Source of the DNA: an uncultured Alphaproteobacteria bacterium
GTDB taxonomy: Bacteria; Pseudomonadota; Alphaproteobacteria; Rs-D84
DNA length: 64,000 bases
Reading direction: 5' to 3'
Assembly (NCBI GenBank): GCA_944389265.1
Contig: CALXLS010000002.1
Location: forward strand, 1-64,000
Positions 12,965 to 47,044 of this stretch are shown piece after piece; within the stretch, counting starts at the first letter, position 1; every line of letters starts with the position of its first letter. Below the pieces are notes generated by a model, which saw only the letters and a program-made list of their open reading frames with translations, was not told the origin of the DNA and did no database searches. Position numbers and translations under genes: made by a program.

Positions 12965-15418
12965 TTAATTACCTGGCACCACATAACAAACGCCATTTTC
13001 ATAATATCCATTTCCTAGCAAAGAACATCTACCCTGATACCATGCATCTGTAAAGGTACATTCATCACGCGCCAAATCATACGATGCGACAGGTTCTTTG
13101 TCTGTTTCATTATAATCTAAACATGCAATCATAGTTGAATTTTCCACACATCTTCCCCATGTTGTATTATCTGTACTACCAGCATAAACAGAACTATAGA
13201 AAGCCTTTAATAAGTTACCCTCTGTATTATCTGCGTCTAACCAATAACCATCTAAACTTTCACATATATCCATCATCATATAATCCATTTCTTCCACAAC
13301 ATCAGCAATTATACGTTCTACCTGTTGTTGTGTTTGTGTAGGCAAGGTACTAAATGAATTTTCTTGACCTGGTACACCACAATTATCCACAGCAAATTGT
13401 TTTATGTTTGCAGCCAGAGAAGCAGTTGAACTGCTACTAGCCGCATCATTTATAGTTCCAGGATTTTTGCTTCTACAATTCCACGGGAACCCTTGAGTTC
13501 CACTTGTCGGTGTACACAAATCTTGAACATAGCTATTTACTGCCGTTTCACAGCCTTCTGTCACACGAACCGTATCAACCGTATCAACGAAAGCCAACAA
13601 AGCAGTTAACCCACACATCTGATTAGCATTTAACCCACTTACATTATTACCGACAGTCAATCTGCCATTACCATCGAATTCGCAGCCTTCGGTATCACCA
13701 TACAAGGATGCACACGCAATAACCTGGTCTTGGCACATTTCTTTTGCGGCATAAGCGCTAATAGCACCAGCATATTGAGATGTAGTATTATCAAAATCCT
13801 TCAAAGCATTAGTCTGTGTATCATAACATTCAGCCATTGTGCTAACACAGGACATTTTAACTTCTTCTATCTTTTCATCTTGGGCCTGAGCAATTTCAAT
13901 CAACGCCTGACGTTTAAATTCTTCCCAAACGATATCAGATATATCACGACAAGTATCTAGTGCAGTTTCAGCAAACATACGTTTTGAATCTAAATAAGAA
14001 TTAAACTGTGCGTTTTGCCCCAAAACATCATCTGACGCGCCATCCAAAGTTATCAAATTCTGCAATTGGAATAAACGCGGTGAATAAATTGCGTCACCCG
14101 TACTTTGGTTAATATAAGCACCGGTATAATCCAAACACTTCTTATAATTTGCACCGCATGCCACATCTGTTGTTAAAGCATTTTTTACTTTTGTTATGCA
14201 TTCATTTACGTCTGCAGAATTATGCGAACGATATTCTTCCAGACGTGCTTCACGCAAATATTTTTCCGCAGTACGAACGGTTTGTTGCAGACTTTCTTTC
14301 TGAGAATTTATTTTCTTCTCATATGTATTACAATCCTGAGTAATTAATATTGCATACGCGCTTTTTGCCATAGTCAAAACCGCATTATTTTCACACGAAT
14401 CTGCGATTAATTGCAAACACTGTTTATGTGCCTGATTATAAAGTTCCTGACCTTCCAAAGAAGCCAAATCAACACCGCCAGAATTATCAAATATTGAATT
14501 AGAATTACCACTCCAAATATCATCTAAATCTGTGGAAAAGTCCAAAGACAAAACACCCAATGACGTTCCGCTATTATAACTACTAGAGGCCTTTTTATTT
14601 CCTGATAACAAGTCACCAATTTCTTCAAGCATTGATGCCGCACCACTAGTATCATTTTTAATAGCATTTTCACCTTCTGTTGCGCTGTACATAGCAGCAA
14701 CTTCTTCTGCAGTTTTATCAACGGCATTCAAATTATTGTCTTCAAATCTCGCCAGAAGATTTACCGCTTCATCCAATGCGTCTTCTGTTTCACGAAATTC
14801 TGTATATTTTGAACTACAAAAACATCTGCGGTAAGTGTCATTCGCATTTGCACAGAACTGATCCATACAAGTTGCATATGCCTCACGACAAGTGGCATAA
14901 CCACCACCAATTTTTGAAATATCATCAAATACAGCCGTTGCACGCGCCATAGATGAACGCGATGCACCAGCAACTGCAGAAGATGCCGCTGCACGCGCTG
15001 TGTTATTGGCGGTAGCACTTCTAACAACATTCGAAGACGCAGCACGTGATGTTGTTGCACCATTTGAAACAGTACTTTGTCTAACCGCACTACGTCCAGA
15101 ATTCACAACATTCTGACTTGTGGGCACTGACGTACTTCTAGCAACCGTTGCTGCCGGTCGTTGTGTTGCACTACGCGAAACCGTATTAGAAGCAGACCTG
15201 CTACTTGAAATCGTATTACCCGCCCCATTGTTTGAAACACTTACAACGTCTTTACCGCTTGCACGCTGTGGCGCGACATTAGTTGTCGCCGCAACAGTAT
15301 TTTGAACCGTTCCGGAACGTGGGTTAGGGGCTTGTGCGGCAAAACCGCTACTTGCAAAACAGCAAATAGCAAAAACATACAAAGAACTTTTACAAAAATT
15401 CGCGATACGTAAGTTCAA
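12965..15418 (-). CDS. Secreted protein of the CMDQFC family (paralogue of the 54984 gene)
   Basis: Not recognised in any named family. 817 residues. A signal peptide (about 1-28) is followed by a Ser/Thr/Asn/Arg/Ala-rich low-complexity tract (29-165). The conserved core has C177-6-C184-4-C189 (ATCREAYATCMDQFC), then YRRCFCS, EGENAIKNDTS, QDCNTYEKKI, HNSADVNEC, CGANYKKCLD and IVWEEFKRQAL. The same motifs in the same order and near-identical cysteine spacing occur in the 907-residue protein at 54984. The start is TTG 15418, preceded by AAGAGAG. It is probably exported and disulfide-bonded; the low-complexity tract could be glycosylated or span the wall. First gene of a two-gene operon. Confidence 0.75.
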   Translation of the reverse strand: MNLRIANFCKSSLYVFAICCFASSGFAAQAPNPRSGTVQNTVAATTNVAPQRASGKDVVSVSNNGAGNTISSSRSASNTVSRSATQRPAATVARSTSVPTSQNVVNSGRSAVRQSTVSNGATTSRAASSNVVRSATANNTARAAASSAVAGASRSSMARATAVFDDISKIGGGYATCREAYATCMDQFCANANDTYRRCFCSSKYTEFRETEDALDEAVNLLARFEDNNLNAVDKTAEEVAAMYSATEGENAIKNDTSGAASMLEEIGDLLSGNKKASSSYNSGTSLGVLSLDFSTDLDDIWSGNSNSIFDNSGGVDLASLEGQELYNQAHKQCLQLIADSCENNAVLTMAKSAYAILITQDCNTYEKKINSQKESLQQTVRTAEKYLREARLEEYRSHNSADVNECITKVKNALTTDVACGANYKKCLDYTGAYINQSTGDAIYSPRLFQLQNLITLDGASDDVLGQNAQFNSYLDSKRMFAETALDTCRDISDIVWEEFKRQALIEIAQAQDEKIEEVKMSCVSTMAECYDTQTNALKDFDNTTSQYAGAISAYAAKEMCQDQVIACASLYGDTEGCEFDGNGRLTVGNNVSGLNANQMCGLTALLAFVDTVDTVRVTEGCETAVNSYVQDLCTPTSGTQGFPWNCRSKNPGTINDAASSSSTASLAANIKQFAVDNCGVPGQENSFSTLPTQTQQQVERIIADVVEEMDYMMMDICESLDGYWLDADNTEGNLLKAFYSSVYAGSTDNTTWGRCVENSTMIACLDYNETDKEPVASYDLARDECTFTDAWYQGRCSLLGNGYYENGVCYVVPGN

Positions 15419-15477
15419 AATATTATTCTCTCTTGTTATATTTTATCACGTTTCACATAAATTAATCAATACTGAAT

Positions 15478-16110
15478 TTACTCTATGCAACAATTTACTG
15501 CATTTTTTACCCAGTCACCTAAACGTCTTACAGCTGATTTTGACTCTTTAAGATCTTGTTTATTAATATTACCTTGTTTTTCTGTTTTTTTTACAGACTT
15601 AGATGAAGACAAATTGCACTGGAACTTTTCTAGCATAGCCTTGTCATAAACGTCTGAGGCAACTTTTTTCACTCCGGTCAAATCAATCAAGTCCATATTC
15701 AACCCCCAGAACAAAGAATACAATTCATAAGACTTATTAAACAAATCATAAGCATCTTTTGTATTACCTGCGGACAATGCCTTTGTGCCAACTTCCATAA
15801 CTCTCATGGACGCTGCCAATAAATGTTTAGATATGCACCATACTTCTCCGTTTTCTGCGGTAGATTTTTTTACTATACGTTCCATTAATTCTTTACGCAT
15901 ATCACGTACAGTATTTATCAAATCATAAAAACCTGTTTTTTGGGTTTTAGCACCACTAAAGAAAAAATGCTCTTCCAAGGAAATCAAATTCATCAATGCA
16001 ATAGATAAATCTTGATCCGACGACAAATCCAAAGGATTTACTTTTTTGGATGCATCTACTTTCTCAATCATTTCTTCCATTGACATTTTTTTATTTTTTA
16101 CTGATTTCAT
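15478..16110 (-). CDS. Cytosolic helical protein of unknown function, partner of the CPVC membrane protein
   Basis: Not recognised by name. 210 residues with no signal peptide. Mostly helical, with DLSSDQDLSIALMNLISLEE, EEHFFF and WCISKHLLAASMRVMEVG as likely conserved blocks, and a basic C-terminal linker rich in Lys and Ser. It starts 16 bases after the stop of the CPVC gene, so they are co-transcribed. From memory a similar gene pair exists in candidate-phyla genomes; this cannot be verified here. Confidence 0.6.
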   Translation of the reverse strand: MKSVKNKKMSMEEMIEKVDASKKVNPLDLSSDQDLSIALMNLISLEEHFFFSGAKTQKTGFYDLINTVRDMRKELMERIVKKSTAENGEVWCISKHLLAASMRVMEVGTKALSAGNTKDAYDLFNKSYELYSLFWGLNMDLIDLTGVKKVASDVYDKAMLEKFQCNLSSSKSVKKTEKQGNINKQDLKESKSAVRRLGDWVKNAVNCCIE

Positions 16111-24152: not shown

Positions 24153-27100
24153 TTACATACTATCGTCATATACCGAGTAAGTAGTTGTACCAGACTTTAT
24201 TCGCAGACTTCCCTTTGTAGCAGTACTCATATTTCCATAATATGTTGTACCGTTAATGCTTACATTCAAGGACGGTGTTGTCTTGCTTTCACTACGCAGG
24301 TAAATTTTTTCACCGTTAAAGTTCAAGACACGTCCACAGTCTGCGGCTTCGTCTGCGCCTGCACCAGAACCTATAGTTGTTAATCCTGCATCACAAGCAT
24401 TTCTTACACCTGCCGACCCTTGCGATACCGTTGATGCTGCTGCCCAATATCCCGCACCAACAGCAGAACATGATGTATTATTTGCTGCTGCAATATAACT
24501 TCCACCAGAGCATGTTATCTTACAGTCATTTGCTGCATCGTGATTTGTTGCCACGGTCCCACTTATCGTATAGTTCGTTAAGCAACTGCTGACGCTACTC
24601 GTGCTGCCTTGACTTACTGTATGTGCACCAACATACCAGTTACCACTTGGCGTTGTACATGTCGCGTTCGCACTCGCTACTCTCGTTCCCGCAGAACAAC
24701 TTATCTTACAGTCTGTCGATGCATCGTGATCCGTAGATGTCGAAGTATTAGCAGTTGCATAACCCGTCACACATGACTTCACATTCGTTCCCGATGTAGA
24801 GCCCGCTGATACTGTATGTGCGCCTGTATACCAACTTCCTGTCGGTGTCGTACATGCCGCATCCGCACTCGCTACTCTCGTACCTGCTGCACAACTTATC
24901 TTACAGTCTGACTTCGCGTCATGATCTGCCGCTGTTGTACCACTTATCGTATAACTTGTCGGACATGAGGTCGCTGCAGGTGACGTACTGCCGTACGATA
25001 CACTATGTGCGCCTATATACACATTACCACTTGTTATCGCACTACATGTTCCATTCGCAGTTGTTACCCTGTAACCACCAGAACAATTTATCTTACAACT
25101 ACTCTGTGCAGCTCCTGCTGCTCCATCATCATAGCCACTCGGACAACTAGAGCAGGTTGATGTGCTTCCATAATTTACTGTATGCGCTGCTTTATATGTT
25201 CCTGTGCCACATGCTGTAGATTCTGCATCATTCGCTGTCTTTACATACTCCGCTGCTGGAACATTCATCTTACATTGATTCTGTGCACCTGCAGCCGCAC
25301 CATCCCTATACCCAGCCGGACACTGTGTCCTACTAGATGTGCTTCCTTGGCTTACGGTCTTAGAAGCTGCCCAATAACCAGTACCTACGCTAGAACATGC
25401 AGCTCCTGCAGAAGCAACATATTCACCAGCATCGCACGTAGTCTTACACGATGCTACACCAGCGTGACTAGAAGCAGATGTTCCACTATTTGTGTACCCA
25501 TTAGTCGTATTACATGCTGTGCAACTTCCTGCACCTGCATTAGAATACTGATTATTACCACATACACTGCAACTGTATTCTGTTCCATAATACGCATTAT
25601 GCGCGCCCTTATAAGTTCCAGCATCACATGTATCTAATGTTGTACCACTCGTTCCAACTCGAACACTACCAGCCGCAACAGGTAAATAACAACTTGTATT
25701 AGAACTCTGACCAGTACTTGTATTAGTATACCCAGTCCCCAAAGTAGAACATGCTGTCCTACCACCAGTTGTTGTCCCTGTACCATAATAGATGTTTACA
25801 TTACCTGGGCACCAACCACCAGCTGCACAAGTCACTTGACCCGCTTTCGCAGTTGCAACATAATTACCAGCAGTTGTTGTCAAATAACAGCTATTTACAC
25901 TCGTTGTACCAGCCGAACTCTTTGTGTAATCACCATTAGTTCCACTACTACATGTCGGGCAAGTATTCCCACTCTTATAATAGTTCGCACTACATGTTCC
26001 AACAGTACACAAATTACTTACTGTATTTGCAGACCATGACGGTGTCGCCCATGTAGATAAACCTGATATCGATGTACACGATGTACAACTTGATGCAGCG
26101 GTTGTTCCTGTGCTTGCAGTAGTTTTACCAGCACCACATACTGTACATGCACTTGCAGTACCTGTACTATATGAACCTATCGCGCACTTCGTTGCCGCAG
26201 CGGTTCCCCCCGTACAATAACTTCCAGCAGGGCATGCAGAACAAGACGTTCCATTTACATAGTACTTAGGATTAGCACTTAACGCTGTATTAACACTTGA
26301 CGAACCCCACGTCGTAGAACTTGCCGCTGTCTGCTTCAAATTACCAGAAGCACAATTAGATGGCGTTCCACTTACTTGTACGCAACTTGATAAACTACTC
26401 CACCCAGTACCAGCACTATCCTTCTTACTCCAACCACTAGTTAAAGCAGGGCAAGAAGAACAACTTGATGTACTACCATAATTTACGGTGTGCGCTGCTT
26501 TATAAGTCCAGTTAGCACAAGTAGACTGTGTCGCACTATTCGCAGTTGCAACATACTTACCTCCTGCAACACTCATCTTACAATCACTCTGTGCCGCTCC
26601 TGCTGCTCCATCATCATAACCACTCGGACAACTAGAGCAGGTCGATGTGCTTCCATAATTTACTGTATGCGCTGCTTTATATGTACCCGTGCCACATGCT
26701 GTAGATTCTGCATCATTCGCTGTCTTTACATACTCCGCTGCTGGTACATTCATCTTACAGCCACTCTGTGCACTCGCTGCTGCTCCATCCCTATATCCAG
26801 CCGGACACTGTGTCCTACTAGATGTGCTACCTTGGCTTACCGTAGACGCTGCCGCCCAATATCCAGTACCTACGCTAGAACATGAGGTTGCATTCGTACT
26901 CGCTAAATATGTTCCACCAGAACAACTTATCTTACAGTCACTTGCTGTATCGTGATTTGTTGCCGCGGTCCCACTTATCGTATAGTTCGTTAAGCAACTG
27001 CTGACGCTACTCGTGCTGCCTTGACTTACTGTATGTGCACCAACATACCAGTTACCACTTGGCGTTGTACATGTCGCGTTCGCACTCGCTACTCTCGTTC

Positions 27101-29642
27101 CCGCAGAACAACTTATCTTACAGTCTGTCGATGCATCGTGATCCGTAGATGTCGAAGTATTAGCAGTTGCATAACCCGTCACACATGACTTCACATTCGT
27201 TCCCGATGTAGAGCCCGCTGATACTGTATGTGCGCCTGTATACCAACTTCCTGTCGGTGTCGTACATGCCGCATCCGCACTCGCTACTCTCGTACCTGCT
27301 GCACAACTTATCTTACAGTCTGACTTCGCGTCATGATCTGCCGCTGTTGTACCACTTATCGTATAACTTGTCGGACATGAGGTCGCTGCAGGTGACGTAC
27401 TGCCGTACGATACACTATGTGCGCCTATATACACATTACCACTTGTTATCGCACTACATGTTCCATTCGCAGTTGTTACCCTGTAACCACCAGAACAATT
27501 TATCTTACACTGACTTGCCGAAGTTTTTCCTGCTGTAGCAGTTTCATCATCATAATTTGTAGGGCAATTATTTTGAACGCCACCTGAACAATAAGTTGCA
27601 CCAGTACACTGCGATTGTCCGGTACGTGTTGTAGACGTTCCACCTGTAGAATAATATCCACTTGAAACATTATTTCTTACACCACCACTACAATAATATG
27701 CATTACCACCACAAGCAGATTGGCCTGTACAATTATTACCACTAGAATTACACCCAGTTGTATAATAACCGCTTGTCACAGTACTACACGCACTTGCGCC
27801 CGCAGCACTATACTTTGTACGTCCAGTACATGCCGAACAACTTGTTGCTGTACTACCATCTGTTCCCTGATATGTACCAGCCGCACAAGCAGGGCAAGAA
27901 GTTCCACTTACATAACGTCCAGCACTTGCAGTCACAGACTTCACAGTTTGCTGACAGGATGCATTATTAGTACTACACCCACTTTTTACAGTTCCATCGC
28001 CTGTTCCTGCAGAGTTTGAATAGGCAACATAATCACATGATGGATTAGAACAACTATTGCAAGTTCTAGACTCACACCCGGTTGGCAGCGAACACGAAGT
28101 TTGACTACCGGTCCATGCACGTGACTTTGTATTACTATAACACTTTGTTATGCCACCATCATTACCTGCATCAGAATTTGGGTACTCTGACGGACATGCA
28201 GAGCATGTTGTGCCTGCATCATAATAACCAGAATTTGCAGTAACTGCCGCAGGTGTCTTTGTACAATTACTTGGAGTACAAGTTGTATCCGTGACCCCAT
28301 AATAGTCCTTATATGTACAGGTTCCTGGCGTGCAACTATTCCATGATGTCACACTTGCACAATTCGTAGGCACAGAACCATTAACCTGTGAACCTGTTTT
28401 TGTTTTTGTTGCATAGCAATAATTACTATTTGCTGCACCATTATCTGATGATGGATAACTTGAATTAAACGAACTACATGATGAACAAGCCTGACCAGAA
28501 CCATTCGAATACCCATAATACCCGGCCTTACCAGTCGTAGTTTTTGCTGTTTTTGTACAATTCGTCGGAGTACAAGTTGTATCTGTAGCCCCATAATAAT
28601 CCTTATAAGTACATGTTCCTGGTGTGCAAGAATTCCACGCAGTTACAGAATAACAATTCGTTGGTGTAGAACCATTAACCTGTGAACCTGTTTTTGTTTT
28701 TGTTGCATAGCAATAATTACTATTTGCTGCACCATTATCTGATGATGGATAACTTGAATTAAACGAACTACATGATGAACAAGCCTGACCAGAACCATTC
28801 GAATACCCATAATACCCAGCCTTACCAGTCGTAGTATCTGCCGTTTTTGTACAGTTGCTTGGTGTACAATCAGAAACAATTGTTCCACTATATTTTTTCG
28901 TATAAGTACATGTTCCTGGTGTACAAGAATTCCACGCAGTTACAGAATAACAATTTGTTGGCGTAGAACCATTCACCTGCGAACCTGTTTTTGAAAAACT
29001 ACCCACACATTCACTTTGAGAAGTTGCGGCAATATTTCTATACCCCGACGGGCACTGTGCTTGGGCACTATTGCTAGACTTATAATACCCCGTAGAAACA
29101 CTCTTACAACTTGTAGCGCCAGTTGTATCTTGATATTGCAAGGATCCACTACATGCATTTCTTACACCACCAGAGCAATAGTATCCCGCCTCGCATTTAG
29201 TTTGCCCAGTGCGTGTTGTTGATGTACCACCAGTTGTATAATACCCATTAGAAACAGAATTACGTCCCTGAGCACTACTTGACGGAGTAAAAGTTCCCCC
29301 TGGACACCAGTATCCATTTCCACCACATGCAGAACAAGAAGAACCATTGGCCGGCAAATAATAACCTGCAGAACAAGTTACGGTGCTTGCTTTTGGACAA
29401 CTGGTTCCGCCCGCACAGGTATAATTAGACCCATAAACAGAACATGGGCGACAAGCATTCCCAGTTGCTGGTGTAGTATTACATGTCGTAGAAGACGAAC
29501 TTGAAGTCATATAATACCCAGAATTACAACTGGTATACTTCTTATACGAAGGACAGGTATACCCAGCAGCCAACGCATTACCGACAAAAAACATTAAACC
29601 CAAACAAGCAAAAATTCGCAGAAATCTAGACATTCTTCTCAC
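24153..29642 (-). CDS. Giant exported Cys-rich repeat protein
   Basis: 1829 residues. A signal peptide (MRRMSRFLRIFACLGLMFFVGNALA) precedes about 1,700 residues of short Cys-rich modules. Some read like ephrin-receptor/GCC2-GCC3 repeats (CAAGTYQGTDGSTATSCSAC). Others repeat GTYKAAHTVNYGSTSTCSSC, or form 98-residue tandem units (KTGSQVNGSTPTNCYSVTAW). The last 80 residues lack Cys and form a separate domain (NFNGEKIYLRSESKTTPSLN, GTTYYGNMS, TYSVYDDSM), perhaps a surface anchor or sorting tail. Composition is extreme in Ser, Thr, Gly and Cys. The start is GTG 29642 (AAAGAG upstream) or ATG 29633. It is probably a disulfide-rich surface fibre or adhesin; that role is inferred. Confidence 0.8.
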   Translation of the reverse strand: MRRMSRFLRIFACLGLMFFVGNALAAGYTCPSYKKYTSCNSGYYMTSSSSSTTCNTTPATGNACRPCSVYGSNYTCAGGTSCPKASTVTCSAGYYLPANGSSCSACGGNGYWCPGGTFTPSSSAQGRNSVSNGYYTTGGTSTTRTGQTKCEAGYYCSGGVRNACSGSLQYQDTTGATSCKSVSTGYYKSSNSAQAQCPSGYRNIAATSQSECVGSFSKTGSQVNGSTPTNCYSVTAWNSCTPGTCTYTKKYSGTIVSDCTPSNCTKTADTTTGKAGYYGYSNGSGQACSSCSSFNSSYPSSDNGAANSNYCYATKTKTGSQVNGSTPTNCYSVTAWNSCTPGTCTYKDYYGATDTTCTPTNCTKTAKTTTGKAGYYGYSNGSGQACSSCSSFNSSYPSSDNGAANSNYCYATKTKTGSQVNGSVPTNCASVTSWNSCTPGTCTYKDYYGVTDTTCTPSNCTKTPAAVTANSGYYDAGTTCSACPSEYPNSDAGNDGGITKCYSNTKSRAWTGSQTSCSLPTGCESRTCNSCSNPSCDYVAYSNSAGTGDGTVKSGCSTNNASCQQTVKSVTASAGRYVSGTSCPACAAGTYQGTDGSTATSCSACTGRTKYSAAGASACSTVTSGYYTTGCNSSGNNCTGQSACGGNAYYCSGGVRNNVSSGYYSTGGTSTTRTGQSQCTGATYCSGGVQNNCPTNYDDETATAGKTSASQCKINCSGGYRVTTANGTCSAITSGNVYIGAHSVSYGSTSPAATSCPTSYTISGTTAADHDAKSDCKISCAAGTRVASADAACTTPTGSWYTGAHTVSAGSTSGTNVKSCVTGYATANTSTSTDHDASTDCKISCSAGTRVASANATCTTPSGNWYVGAHTVSQGSTSSVSSCLTNYTISGTAATNHDTASDCKISCSGGTYLASTNATSCSSVGTGYWAAASTVSQGSTSSRTQCPAGYRDGAAASAQSGCKMNVPAAEYVKTANDAESTACGTGTYKAAHTVNYGSTSTCSSCPSGYDDGAAGAAQSDCKMSVAGGKYVATANSATQSTCANWTYKAAHTVNYGSTSSCSSCPALTSGWSKKDSAGTGWSSLSSCVQVSGTPSNCASGNLKQTAASSTTWGSSSVNTALSANPKYYVNGTSCSACPAGSYCTGGTAAATKCAIGSYSTGTASACTVCGAGKTTASTGTTAASSCTSCTSISGLSTWATPSWSANTVSNLCTVGTCSANYYKSGNTCPTCSSGTNGDYTKSSAGTTSVNSCYLTTTAGNYVATAKAGQVTCAAGGWCPGNVNIYYGTGTTTGGRTACSTLGTGYTNTSTGQSSNTSCYLPVAAGSVRVGTSGTTLDTCDAGTYKGAHNAYYGTEYSCSVCGNNQYSNAGAGSCTACNTTNGYTNSGTSASSHAGVASCKTTCDAGEYVASAGAACSSVGTGYWAASKTVSQGSTSSRTQCPAGYRDGAAAGAQNQCKMNVPAAEYVKTANDAESTACGTGTYKAAHTVNYGSTSTCSSCPSGYDDGAAGAAQSSCKINCSGGYRVTTANGTCSAITSGNVYIGAHSVSYGSTSPAATSCPTSYTISGTTAADHDAKSDCKISCAAGTRVASADAACTTPTGSWYTGAHTVSAGSTSGTNVKSCVTGYATANTSTSTDHDASTDCKISCSAGTRVASANATCTTPSGNWYVGAHTVSQGSTSSVSSCLTNYTISGTVATNHDAANDCKITCSGGSYIAAANNTSCSAVGAGYWAAASTVSQGSAGVRNACDAGLTTIGSGAGADEAADCGRVLNFNGEKIYLRSESKTTPSLNVSINGTTYYGNMSTATKGSLRIKSGTTTYSVYDDSM
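24541..25097. repeat. Long direct repeat, copy 1 (inside the giant gene)
   Basis: About 557 bases nearly identical to 26953-27509, constant offset 2412. I saw one substitution (CCACGG versus CCGCGG) near the left end. Similarity continues at lower identity to the left. Confidence 0.9.
25102..25397. repeat. Second direct repeat, copy 1 (inside the giant gene)
   Basis: Matches 26587-26882 with constant offset 1485. The first 160 bases are nearly identical and the remainder is more diverged. Confidence 0.8.
26587..26882. repeat. Second direct repeat, copy 2 (inside the giant gene)
   Basis: Partner of 25102-25397. The different offset from the 557-base repeat shows that separate duplication events built the gene. 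Confidence 0.8.
26953..27509. repeat. Long direct repeat, copy 2 (inside the giant gene)
   Basis: Partner of 24541-25097. Near-identity at synonymous sites shows that the copy was made recently or is kept alike by gene conversion. Confidence 0.9.
28320..29000. repeat. Tandem 294-base repeat array (inside the giant gene)
   Basis: The phrase ACCTGTGAACCTGTTTTTG recurs (exactly or with a change) near 28384, 28678 and 28972, a period of 294 bases or 98 codons. Two units are almost identical and the outer ones partial. Confidence 0.85.
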
Positions 29643-46093: not shown

Positions 46094-46117
46094 AACCGCC
46101 GAAAGGCGGTTTTTTAT
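46094..46117. terminator. Terminator between acpS and the saposin-like gene
   Basis: AACCGCC/GGCGGTT stem with GAAA tetraloop and T run. Confidence 0.9.
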
Positions 46118-46767
46118 TCTGAATAATAACAATTATTCGGTGTAAAAACATAAGTTCCAGAATCATCTAACACATAAACACCTTCTGCTATATAACAAGA
46201 AGTCACAGTTGTTGAACCCGGATAAGAATGAGCATACACACCATTTAAAGATGGGCATTGTATACAACCAGAAGAACCGTTTGTACTACTACCATAAAAA
46301 CCATCTGCACACCTATATTCAACTTTGGTATTACAAACCCCACAATTACATACCGCCTCATAAATTCTTGCCTGATAACCAGTAGATGCAGCACGCCAAT
46401 CTGTCGTATTACACCCAACACAATCAGGGCAGGGTTCTGTTCCTCCTCCACTTGAACATAATGCTAATTCTTTACAAACTGTATCTACATCATGCCCTAT
46501 ATTATATAGTTGAGACATAGCATAACCATAAGTCTCTATCAAAATCCTAGCCTGATTAGCCATCATTGCAGGCAGCATACTCGCTGTGTCTTCCATTATA
46601 GCAATAATTTGCTCATCCGAACAATTCATTGCAACCATACACTCTTTATCTACTTGTCCTAATAAGGCTTTACATAAATCACAGTCACTACTTGAAGATG
46701 CATAAGCAGAATCACCCAAAAAAGGTGTAACCGATATTAGCAATAAAATAAAAAAAGTTTTTTTCAT
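46114..46767 (-). CDS. Secreted saposin-B-like domain protein
   Basis: 217 residues from ATG 46767 (GGAG upstream). Signal peptide to about A23. Residues 28-104 match a saposin-B domain: C29xxC32, the CSLLP-like ASMLP (62-66), ETYG (78-81), C98xxxxxC104. Distances between the positions equivalent to Cys3-Cys4, Cys4-Cys5 and Cys5-Cys6 are 10, 24 and 5 residues, as I recall for human saposin C. Positions 3 and 4 are both Ala (A62, A73), and an extra pair C43/C49 is present. Saposins bind and perturb lipid membranes. Residues 110-217 are Cys-rich modules (CPDCVGC, CNCGVC, CIQC) resembling those of the giant repeat protein. It has a long leader with two small ORFs. Confidence 0.8.
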   Translation of the reverse strand: MKKTFFILLLISVTPFLGDSAYASSSSDCDLCKALLGQVDKECMVAMNCSDEQIIAIMEDTASMLPAMMANQARILIETYGYAMSQLYNIGHDVDTVCKELALCSSGGGTEPCPDCVGCNTTDWRAASTGYQARIYEAVCNCGVCNTKVEYRCADGFYGSSTNGSSGCIQCPSLNGVYAHSYPGSTTVTSCYIAEGVYVLDDSGTYVFTPNNCYYSE

Positions 46768-46771
46768 GTTC

Positions 46772-46912
46772 TTACTCCTGATTTTTTCTAAATGAAAAAC
46801 CACCAAGGTAATTGGTGGTCAGGAGGTTGAGAACAATCGTAAGAATTGTGTCGCGTATTGTTAATATTCCGCGAACCCTCCTGACCAGTACGATCAGGAG
46901 TTTATTTTTCAT
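46772..46912 (-). CDS. Possible leader ORF of 46 codons, rich in Leu/Ile/Val
   Basis: ATG 46912 to TAA 46774-46772. The product begins MKNKLLIVLVRRVRG and contains ILTIVLNLL; about 17 residues are Leu, Ile or Val. Its stop lies four bases before the saposin-like start codon and overlaps its ribosome-site region, so the two may be translationally coupled. It uses codons such as AGG AGG, CTC and CTG that are rare in neighbouring genes. It could instead be a by-product of the structured RNA. Confidence 0.35.
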   Translation of the reverse strand: MKNKLLIVLVRRVRGILTIRDTILTIVLNLLTTNYLGGFSFRKNQE

Positions 46913-47004
46913 CGTAATAATAAAACTGGCGCAAATTGCGCGCCACAGATACTTATTCCGACGCTTACGCAGAGGTTCTCACACCCCATCGACAGAACAC
47001 CCAT
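46909..47004 (-). CDS. Possible leader ORF of 31 codons
   Basis: ATG 47004 (about five bases after the predicted transcript start) to TGA 46911-46909, which overlaps the ATG of the next small ORF in the pattern ATGA. The product has four Cys/Gly-rich elements (MGCENLCVSVGISICGAQ). No homology is known to me, and it is offered only because of the overlap chain. Confidence 0.25.
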   Translation of the reverse strand: MGVLSMGCENLCVSVGISICGAQFAPVLLLR

Positions 47005-47015
47005 CGACAAATAAA

Positions 47016-47044
47016 ATTTTACATTTTTTAAGTAAACAATGCAA
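47016..47044 (-). promoter_or_regulatory. Promoter of the saposin-like transcription unit
   Basis: Reverse-strand TTGCAT (47044-47039), 17-base spacer, TAAAAT (47021-47016), placed just downstream of the terminator of the preceding gene. Confidence 0.6.

Follow-up and report, generated by a model that had tools for sequence, protein, structure and literature searches.

A divergent saposin-like domain in a predicted secreted protein of an alphaproteobacterium, and a recurrent leader RNA related to sRNA-Xcc1

Introduction

Saposin-type domains are lipid-handling devices known mainly from eukaryotes, and pore-forming NK-lysins are cationic. Circular and leaderless bacteriocins are small peptides that have neither a signal peptide nor disulfides. 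A bacterial saposin-like fold has been described for these bacteriocins (PMC6072434). Among regulatory RNAs, sRNA-Xcc1 has been described as an 88-nt small RNA (PMC2996969), and in integron cassettes of Xanthomonas it precedes symE (PMC12444791).

Here we report on a gene in a 64,000-nt stretch of alphaproteobacterial DNA (the window), whose product is a genuine and unusual saposin-fold protein in a bacterium. We favour, at a probability of roughly 0.6 for the explanation as a whole, an exported, disulfide-rich two-domain protein whose saposin domain handles lipids and whose expression is set by its own leader RNA.

Results

The gene and its setting

A preliminary description placed a secreted protein at 46114–46767 and left the strand unstated; the interval does hold a 217-residue open reading frame, on the minus strand, the plus strand having stops throughout (Table 1). 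All residues and motifs named in that description (C29, C32, C43, C49, C98, C104, ASMLP, ETYG, Ala62 and Ala73) are present in the translation, which opens with a Sec-type signal peptide as read from its sequence (MKKTFFILLLISVTPFLGDSAYA). The host genome (0.93 Mb, 7 contigs) also encodes a DsbA homologue. Because the gene stands amid core bacterial genes on a 250-kb contig, eukaryotic contamination is unlikely. It is flanked on one side by a convergent gene that resembles holo-ACP synthase by sequence and on the other by the gene for a 706-residue protein.

Table 1. Positions of the protein and leader RNA features in the window
Feature	Position	Strand	Basis
CDS, saposin-fold secreted protein, 217 aa	46114..46767	minus	translation; relatives in genus
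Sec signal peptide, residues 1-23, likely cut after AYA	46699..46767	minus	sequence reading; hydrophobic, K-rich start
Saposin-like domain, residues 24-106	46450..46698	minus	PDB profile; model pLDDT 93; structure match; Cys invariant in 8 relatives
C-terminal domain, Cys-rich, beta-strand, residues 112-217	46117..46434	minus	common to paralogues with other N-domains
Structured 5' leader, about 240 nt, inferred start to ATG	46768..47008	minus	fold z = -5.8; covariation
Putative -35-like TTGCAT, 17 nt from -10	47039..47044	minus	sequence
-10-like TAAAAT	47016..47021	minus	-10 box equally spaced in nearly all leader copies
Hairpin H1, at inferred transcript start	46988..47008	minus	6/8 pairs with both-side changes, 98.7% paired
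Hairpin H2, conserved GGGGUGUGAGAACCUC	46972..46987	minus	leader-copy comparison
Segment X (CTCCTGA), pairs with X' as helix P1	46894..46900	minus	covariation
Segment X' (GGTCAGGAGG), complementary to X and X''	46877..46886	minus	complementarity
Segment X'' (CCTCCTGACC), complementary to X' and ribosome-binding site	46817..46826	minus	complementarity; predicted fold
Terminator-like hairpin P4 and U run	46795..46819	minus	covariation
TCAGGAG with Shine-Dalgarno, pairs with X'' in predicted fold	46775..46781	minus	complementarity; predicted fold

Sequence and predicted structure point to a saposin

A phmmer search against all PDB chains gives saposins or prosaposin as its top 12 matches (best E = 5e-4), a three-sequence profile reaches E = 4e-5, and a profile built from seven family members matches saposin C at E = 2.7e-10, upholding, together with the predicted fold, the proposal of a saposin-fold domain in a secreted bacterial protein. 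This last profile also finds saposins A and D (E in the 1e-8 range), saposin B (3e-4), SP-B (5e-4) and acyloxyacyl hydrolase (AOAH; 0.09); its matches at E ≤ 0.001 are only saposin-family chains, or chimeras containing one, in full-length alignment, and no NK-lysin or amoebapore chain appears in its list of PDB matches. The cysteine spacings given for human saposin C in the preliminary description agree as claimed, at 10, 24 and 5 residues between positions 3–4, 4–5 and 5–6 in both proteins, while the 2–3 interval is 29 residues in the window protein versus 27 in saposin C because of a two-residue insertion near C43/C49.

Hits to Pfam SapB_1 or SapB_2, which had been anticipated, did not appear, either above the curated cut-off or below it; scans of the window protein with Pfam and NCBIfam yield no usable match, PF20825 ('Saposin-like') being sub-threshold (residues 54–113, E 0.11, 13 bits vs a cut-off of 27). 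This silence, the absence of a third disulfide and the restriction of the domain to one genus would be expected if a helical mini-bundle containing CxxC and Cx5C had arrived at the saposin pattern independently. Such convergence is nonetheless very unlikely given the exclusively saposin-family, full-length profile matches and three spacings identical to those of saposin C, and comparison of the sequences makes homology of the N-terminal domain to saposins highly probable.

The AlphaFold2 model of the domain (pLDDT 93, pTM 0.84) has the four helices of the saposin fold that had been foreseen, with human saposin C as its best structural match (Z 12.6, 1.5 Å over 78 residues). Saposins A and D, a hookworm saposin-like protein, NK-lysin and granulysin come after it in the ranking; acyloxyacyl hydrolase and caenopore-5 are likewise among the matches. 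Foldseek returned no match below E 0.001, though with a probability of 1.00. We consider the saposin fold of the N-terminal domain almost certain: residues 24–106 are, on the predicted structure, a divergent saposin-like domain in the closed four-helix form.

Cysteines and charge across the family

The eight members compared, at 21–43% identity, share six invariant cysteines, namely saposin C1, C2, C5 and C6 and the local pair C43/C49. C1xxC2 and C5x5C6, which hold the cysteines of both terminal disulfides, are thus present in every member, and the newly described nearby pair proves to be a family trait. The missing central pair holds equally: Ala62 and Ala73 occupy its place in the window protein and none of the eight has a canonical C3–C4 pair, which judged from sequence may either have been lost or never have been there. 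Two of the three members in genome G178 (G178b and G178c) have an extra cysteine pair, with one residue in helix 1 and the other where helix 2 ends, which hints at another way of making a third disulfide.

The domain carries a net charge of −8 (family range −6 to −14) and is acidic like saposins A, C and D; NK-lysins being cationic, lipid handling is likelier than lysis. A membrane-lysing factor of the amoebapore, NK-lysin or saposin-fold bacteriocin type, aimed at neighbouring microbes or host cells, would accord with the structural matches to NK-lysin, granulysin and caenopore-5, with the secreted appearance of the protein and with the existence of saposin-fold bacteriocins (PMC6072434). It is improbable, however, in view of the strong acidity of all eight members, a sequence profile that favours prosaposin-type domains, the long C-terminal partner domain and the adjoining genes checked, among which no immunity or ABC-transporter gene was seen. 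By analogy with its relatives the domain may bind lipids, for which we put the chances at about even; that the gene shares no operon with a hydrolase counts against this reading.

A constant C-terminal domain in a diversified family

Residues 112–217 recur in several genes of the same genome (nine matches in all to the window protein), a related genome has up to 18 matches to this C-domain, and the paralogues join it to very different N-terminal parts. In a full-length model the C-domain is beta-rich at high confidence, with a disordered linker; compared with the PDB, it has no significant structure match. It is probably the module that stays constant across a diversified family of secreted or surface proteins and, with the N-domains variable, probably positions the N-domain at the cell surface or envelope.

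This arrangement bears on whether the saposin fold might have no lipid activity and be purely a stable scaffold rich in disulfides, an adhesin or decoy that binds some ligand or the surface of a host. One of many unlike Cys-rich N-domains on the same C-domain is what a diversified surface-display family would be expected to contain, and the relatives are highly divergent; yet the saposin-type acidic character has been kept and the homology is to lipid-binding proteins, so that we think a pure scaffold unlikely, if less so than lysis. Lipid handling remains our preferred reading.

Three further observations concern this family and its surroundings. At locus L005 (G000 C6, about 14759–15500) a leader-bearing C-domain gene has an A/T homopolymer run at its start, directly after which the frame is broken, reflecting either phase variation or decay. 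C-domain genes that have no leader can be preceded by another repeated, partly palindromic element, ATGCCGAATCTAAACGG.CG (L009, L011, L019, L026, L031, L033 and L063), a set that includes most other saposin-fold members. The window also encodes, at 24153–29642 on the minus strand, an 1829-residue Cys-rich secreted repeat protein with long duplicated blocks.

Narrow and patchy occurrence

Saposin-fold proteins number eight in five of ~156 species (genomes) of the genus. Elsewhere in the order, the genomes sampled contain no saposin-fold relative; 385 genomes sampled from the class and 398 from the phylum contain no credible one (two weak partial matches were set aside), and neither do phages and plasmids (tblastn) or scanned viral contigs. 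A pattern scan of a contig collection found nothing with the window protein and, with A1, only the two G027 genes, whose neighbourhoods differ from that of the window gene. In G178, two saposin-fold genes about 25% alike to the window protein stand in tandem (L032/L046; C4 48712–49695), with a third copy elsewhere on the same contig (L063).

This narrow, patchy occurrence in varied neighbourhoods fits late acquisition and reshuffling. Horizontal transfer of the domain from an animal or protist host might account for such a distribution, and the closest solved relatives are in animal prosaposin, but the PDB is biased to mammals, identity is only 23%, and class and phylum have been sampled, not exhausted; the sequences leave host transfer a somewhat doubtful possibility.

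A covarying leader RNA upstream of secreted-protein genes

Comparison of upstream regions reveals a shared leader of ~230 nt, with a −10 box at a fixed distance from the first hairpin in nearly all copies. The window copy folds at −86.9 kcal/mol vs −59.7 for shuffles (z −5.8). Over 42 distinct copies, 99.7% of cells are paired and 9 of 16 pairs have changes on both sides; covariation scores 0.219 in the 3' core of these copies vs 0.083 when shuffled, and 0.410 in the 5' half (where H1 covaries at six of eight pairs) vs 0.198 for the control, slid and shuffled controls falling far below the true alignment. A change in the class of X' is accompanied by a change in X'' across the 42 copies, and the two segments of a copy are complementary over a mean of 10.0 nt, compared with 6.3 between copies of different sequence class. 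The core of X'' is anti-Shine-Dalgarno-like, with pairing between the Shine-Dalgarno and X'' only modestly above that of shuffled tails (6.2 vs 5.0 nt).

A covariance model built on the 3' core, with no more than 25 candidates scored in each genus genome, detects the leader in 141 or more of the 151 genus genomes and at least 17 times in the genome of the window. All 16 genomes sampled from other genera of the family have it (up to 68 copies per ~1 Mb genome); the covariance model did not find it in six genomes from elsewhere in the class. The reading frames downstream of 41 copies, a set reached in part through the C-domain but including 30 loci picked by RNA score alone, are signal-peptide-like in 39 cases and encode seven or more cysteines in 37; for comparison, 17 of 58 window ORFs are signal-peptide-like and seven have both features. 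By eye, other copies precede genes for an autotransporter-like protein, outer-membrane barrels and lipoproteins, and rarely non-secreted genes. The sequence upstream of the two G027 relatives is of a different kind, and this and their differing neighbourhoods indicate that the leader is not tied to genes with a saposin domain.

Besides that of the window, leader copies occur at L002, L003, L004, L007, L010 and L075–L104, with mutually exclusive pairings. Upstream of C-domain genes at L006, L008, L009, L012, L014 and L017 the leader takes another form, richer in G+C (GGTCGGGGAG / CTCCCCGACC), whose second hairpin is longer and which is nearer sRNA-Xcc1.

We judge the leader quite likely to be cis-regulatory, and a specific RNA switch a more tentative proposal. 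In a computed alternative fold the ribosome-binding site can be covered by X, which leaves a simple on/off scheme unproven; the model in which X'–X'' pairing frees the site was not upheld as stated, X then covering it in the computed fold. T-box RNAs carry a conserved motif, and a T-box reading was dropped as the leader lacks it.

Relation of the leader to sRNA-Xcc1

For the window copy, RF02221 (sRNA-Xcc1) is not reported by Rfam at E ≤ 5. The view that the leader is absent from Rfam was rejected, as other copies relate to this family: in cmscan RF02221 aligns to the leader core, an outer X'–X'' stem enclosing two hairpins. Two genus copies exceed its gathering cut-off of 53 bits (57.8 and 55.5), the others listed scoring 26–50, and 14 control genomes have no RF02221 match. 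The alignment and the copies above the gathering score argue that the leader is an enlarged distant relative of sRNA-Xcc1 and not an unrelated new class. The best genus match (L122, G020 C7:80229–80314) lies in a non-secreted context, upstream of a gene that by eye resembles a phage Rha regulator.

Discussion

In the mechanism that we propose, the two-domain protein would be exported by Sec and oxidized by the DsbA of its genome, giving a saposin domain with two terminal disulfides and, instead of the central one, a putative loop pair (C43/C49) specific to the lineage. This acidic domain would open reversibly and so bind or present lipids, whether of the cell's own outer membrane or of cells nearby, and would act in the envelope or outside, presumably at the surface. 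Expression would probably be set by the gene's own leader RNA, in which X' may pair with X or with X'' and X'', adjoining the terminator-like hairpin, could cover the ribosome-binding site; the direction and trigger of such a switch are conjectural.

More broadly, a family of Alphaproteobacteria with tiny genomes may have a secretome regulon that includes this locus. Tens of genes, encoding modular secreted proteins rich in disulfides and among them one with a eukaryotic-type saposin domain, would each be under its own sRNA-Xcc1-type leader, a cis-acting switch of translation or termination. We offer this as a provisional idea, held with less confidence than the cis-regulatory role itself. If true, it recasts sRNA-Xcc1 from a trans-acting small RNA to a widespread cis-regulatory leader. 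The leader would link an orphan integron sRNA family to a cis-acting role, and may merit more attention than the saposin-fold protein. A Sec-exported, disulfide-type saposin domain in a bacterium would extend the use of the fold outside eukaryotes and offer a simple test of its role without sphingolipids.

Like saposins A, C and D of prosaposin (PDB 2gtg, 2dob and 3bqq), the window domain has a predicted closed four-helix fold with C1xxC2 and C5x5C6, is acidic, spans about 80 residues and belongs to a protein of the secretory pathway. Unlike them, it has the extra C43/C49 pair and no C3–C4 disulfide, is 23% identical, and is a bacterial domain that occurs singly, fused to a beta domain rich in cysteine. 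It shares its fold with NK-lysin and granulysin (Z 11.1–11.3) but, in contrast to these and amoebapore-type cationic lytic peptides, is acidic and has no sequence match to them. With the circular and leaderless bacteriocins it has in common a bacterial saposin-like fold, from which point they part, the window protein being a Sec-exported disulfide protein of 217 residues. The leader core, for its part, has the outer X'–X'' stem and two inner hairpins of sRNA-Xcc1, whereas the whole leader is ~230 nt long, adds the H1, H2, junction and P1 helices, and lies directly upstream of secreted-protein genes in many copies per genome.
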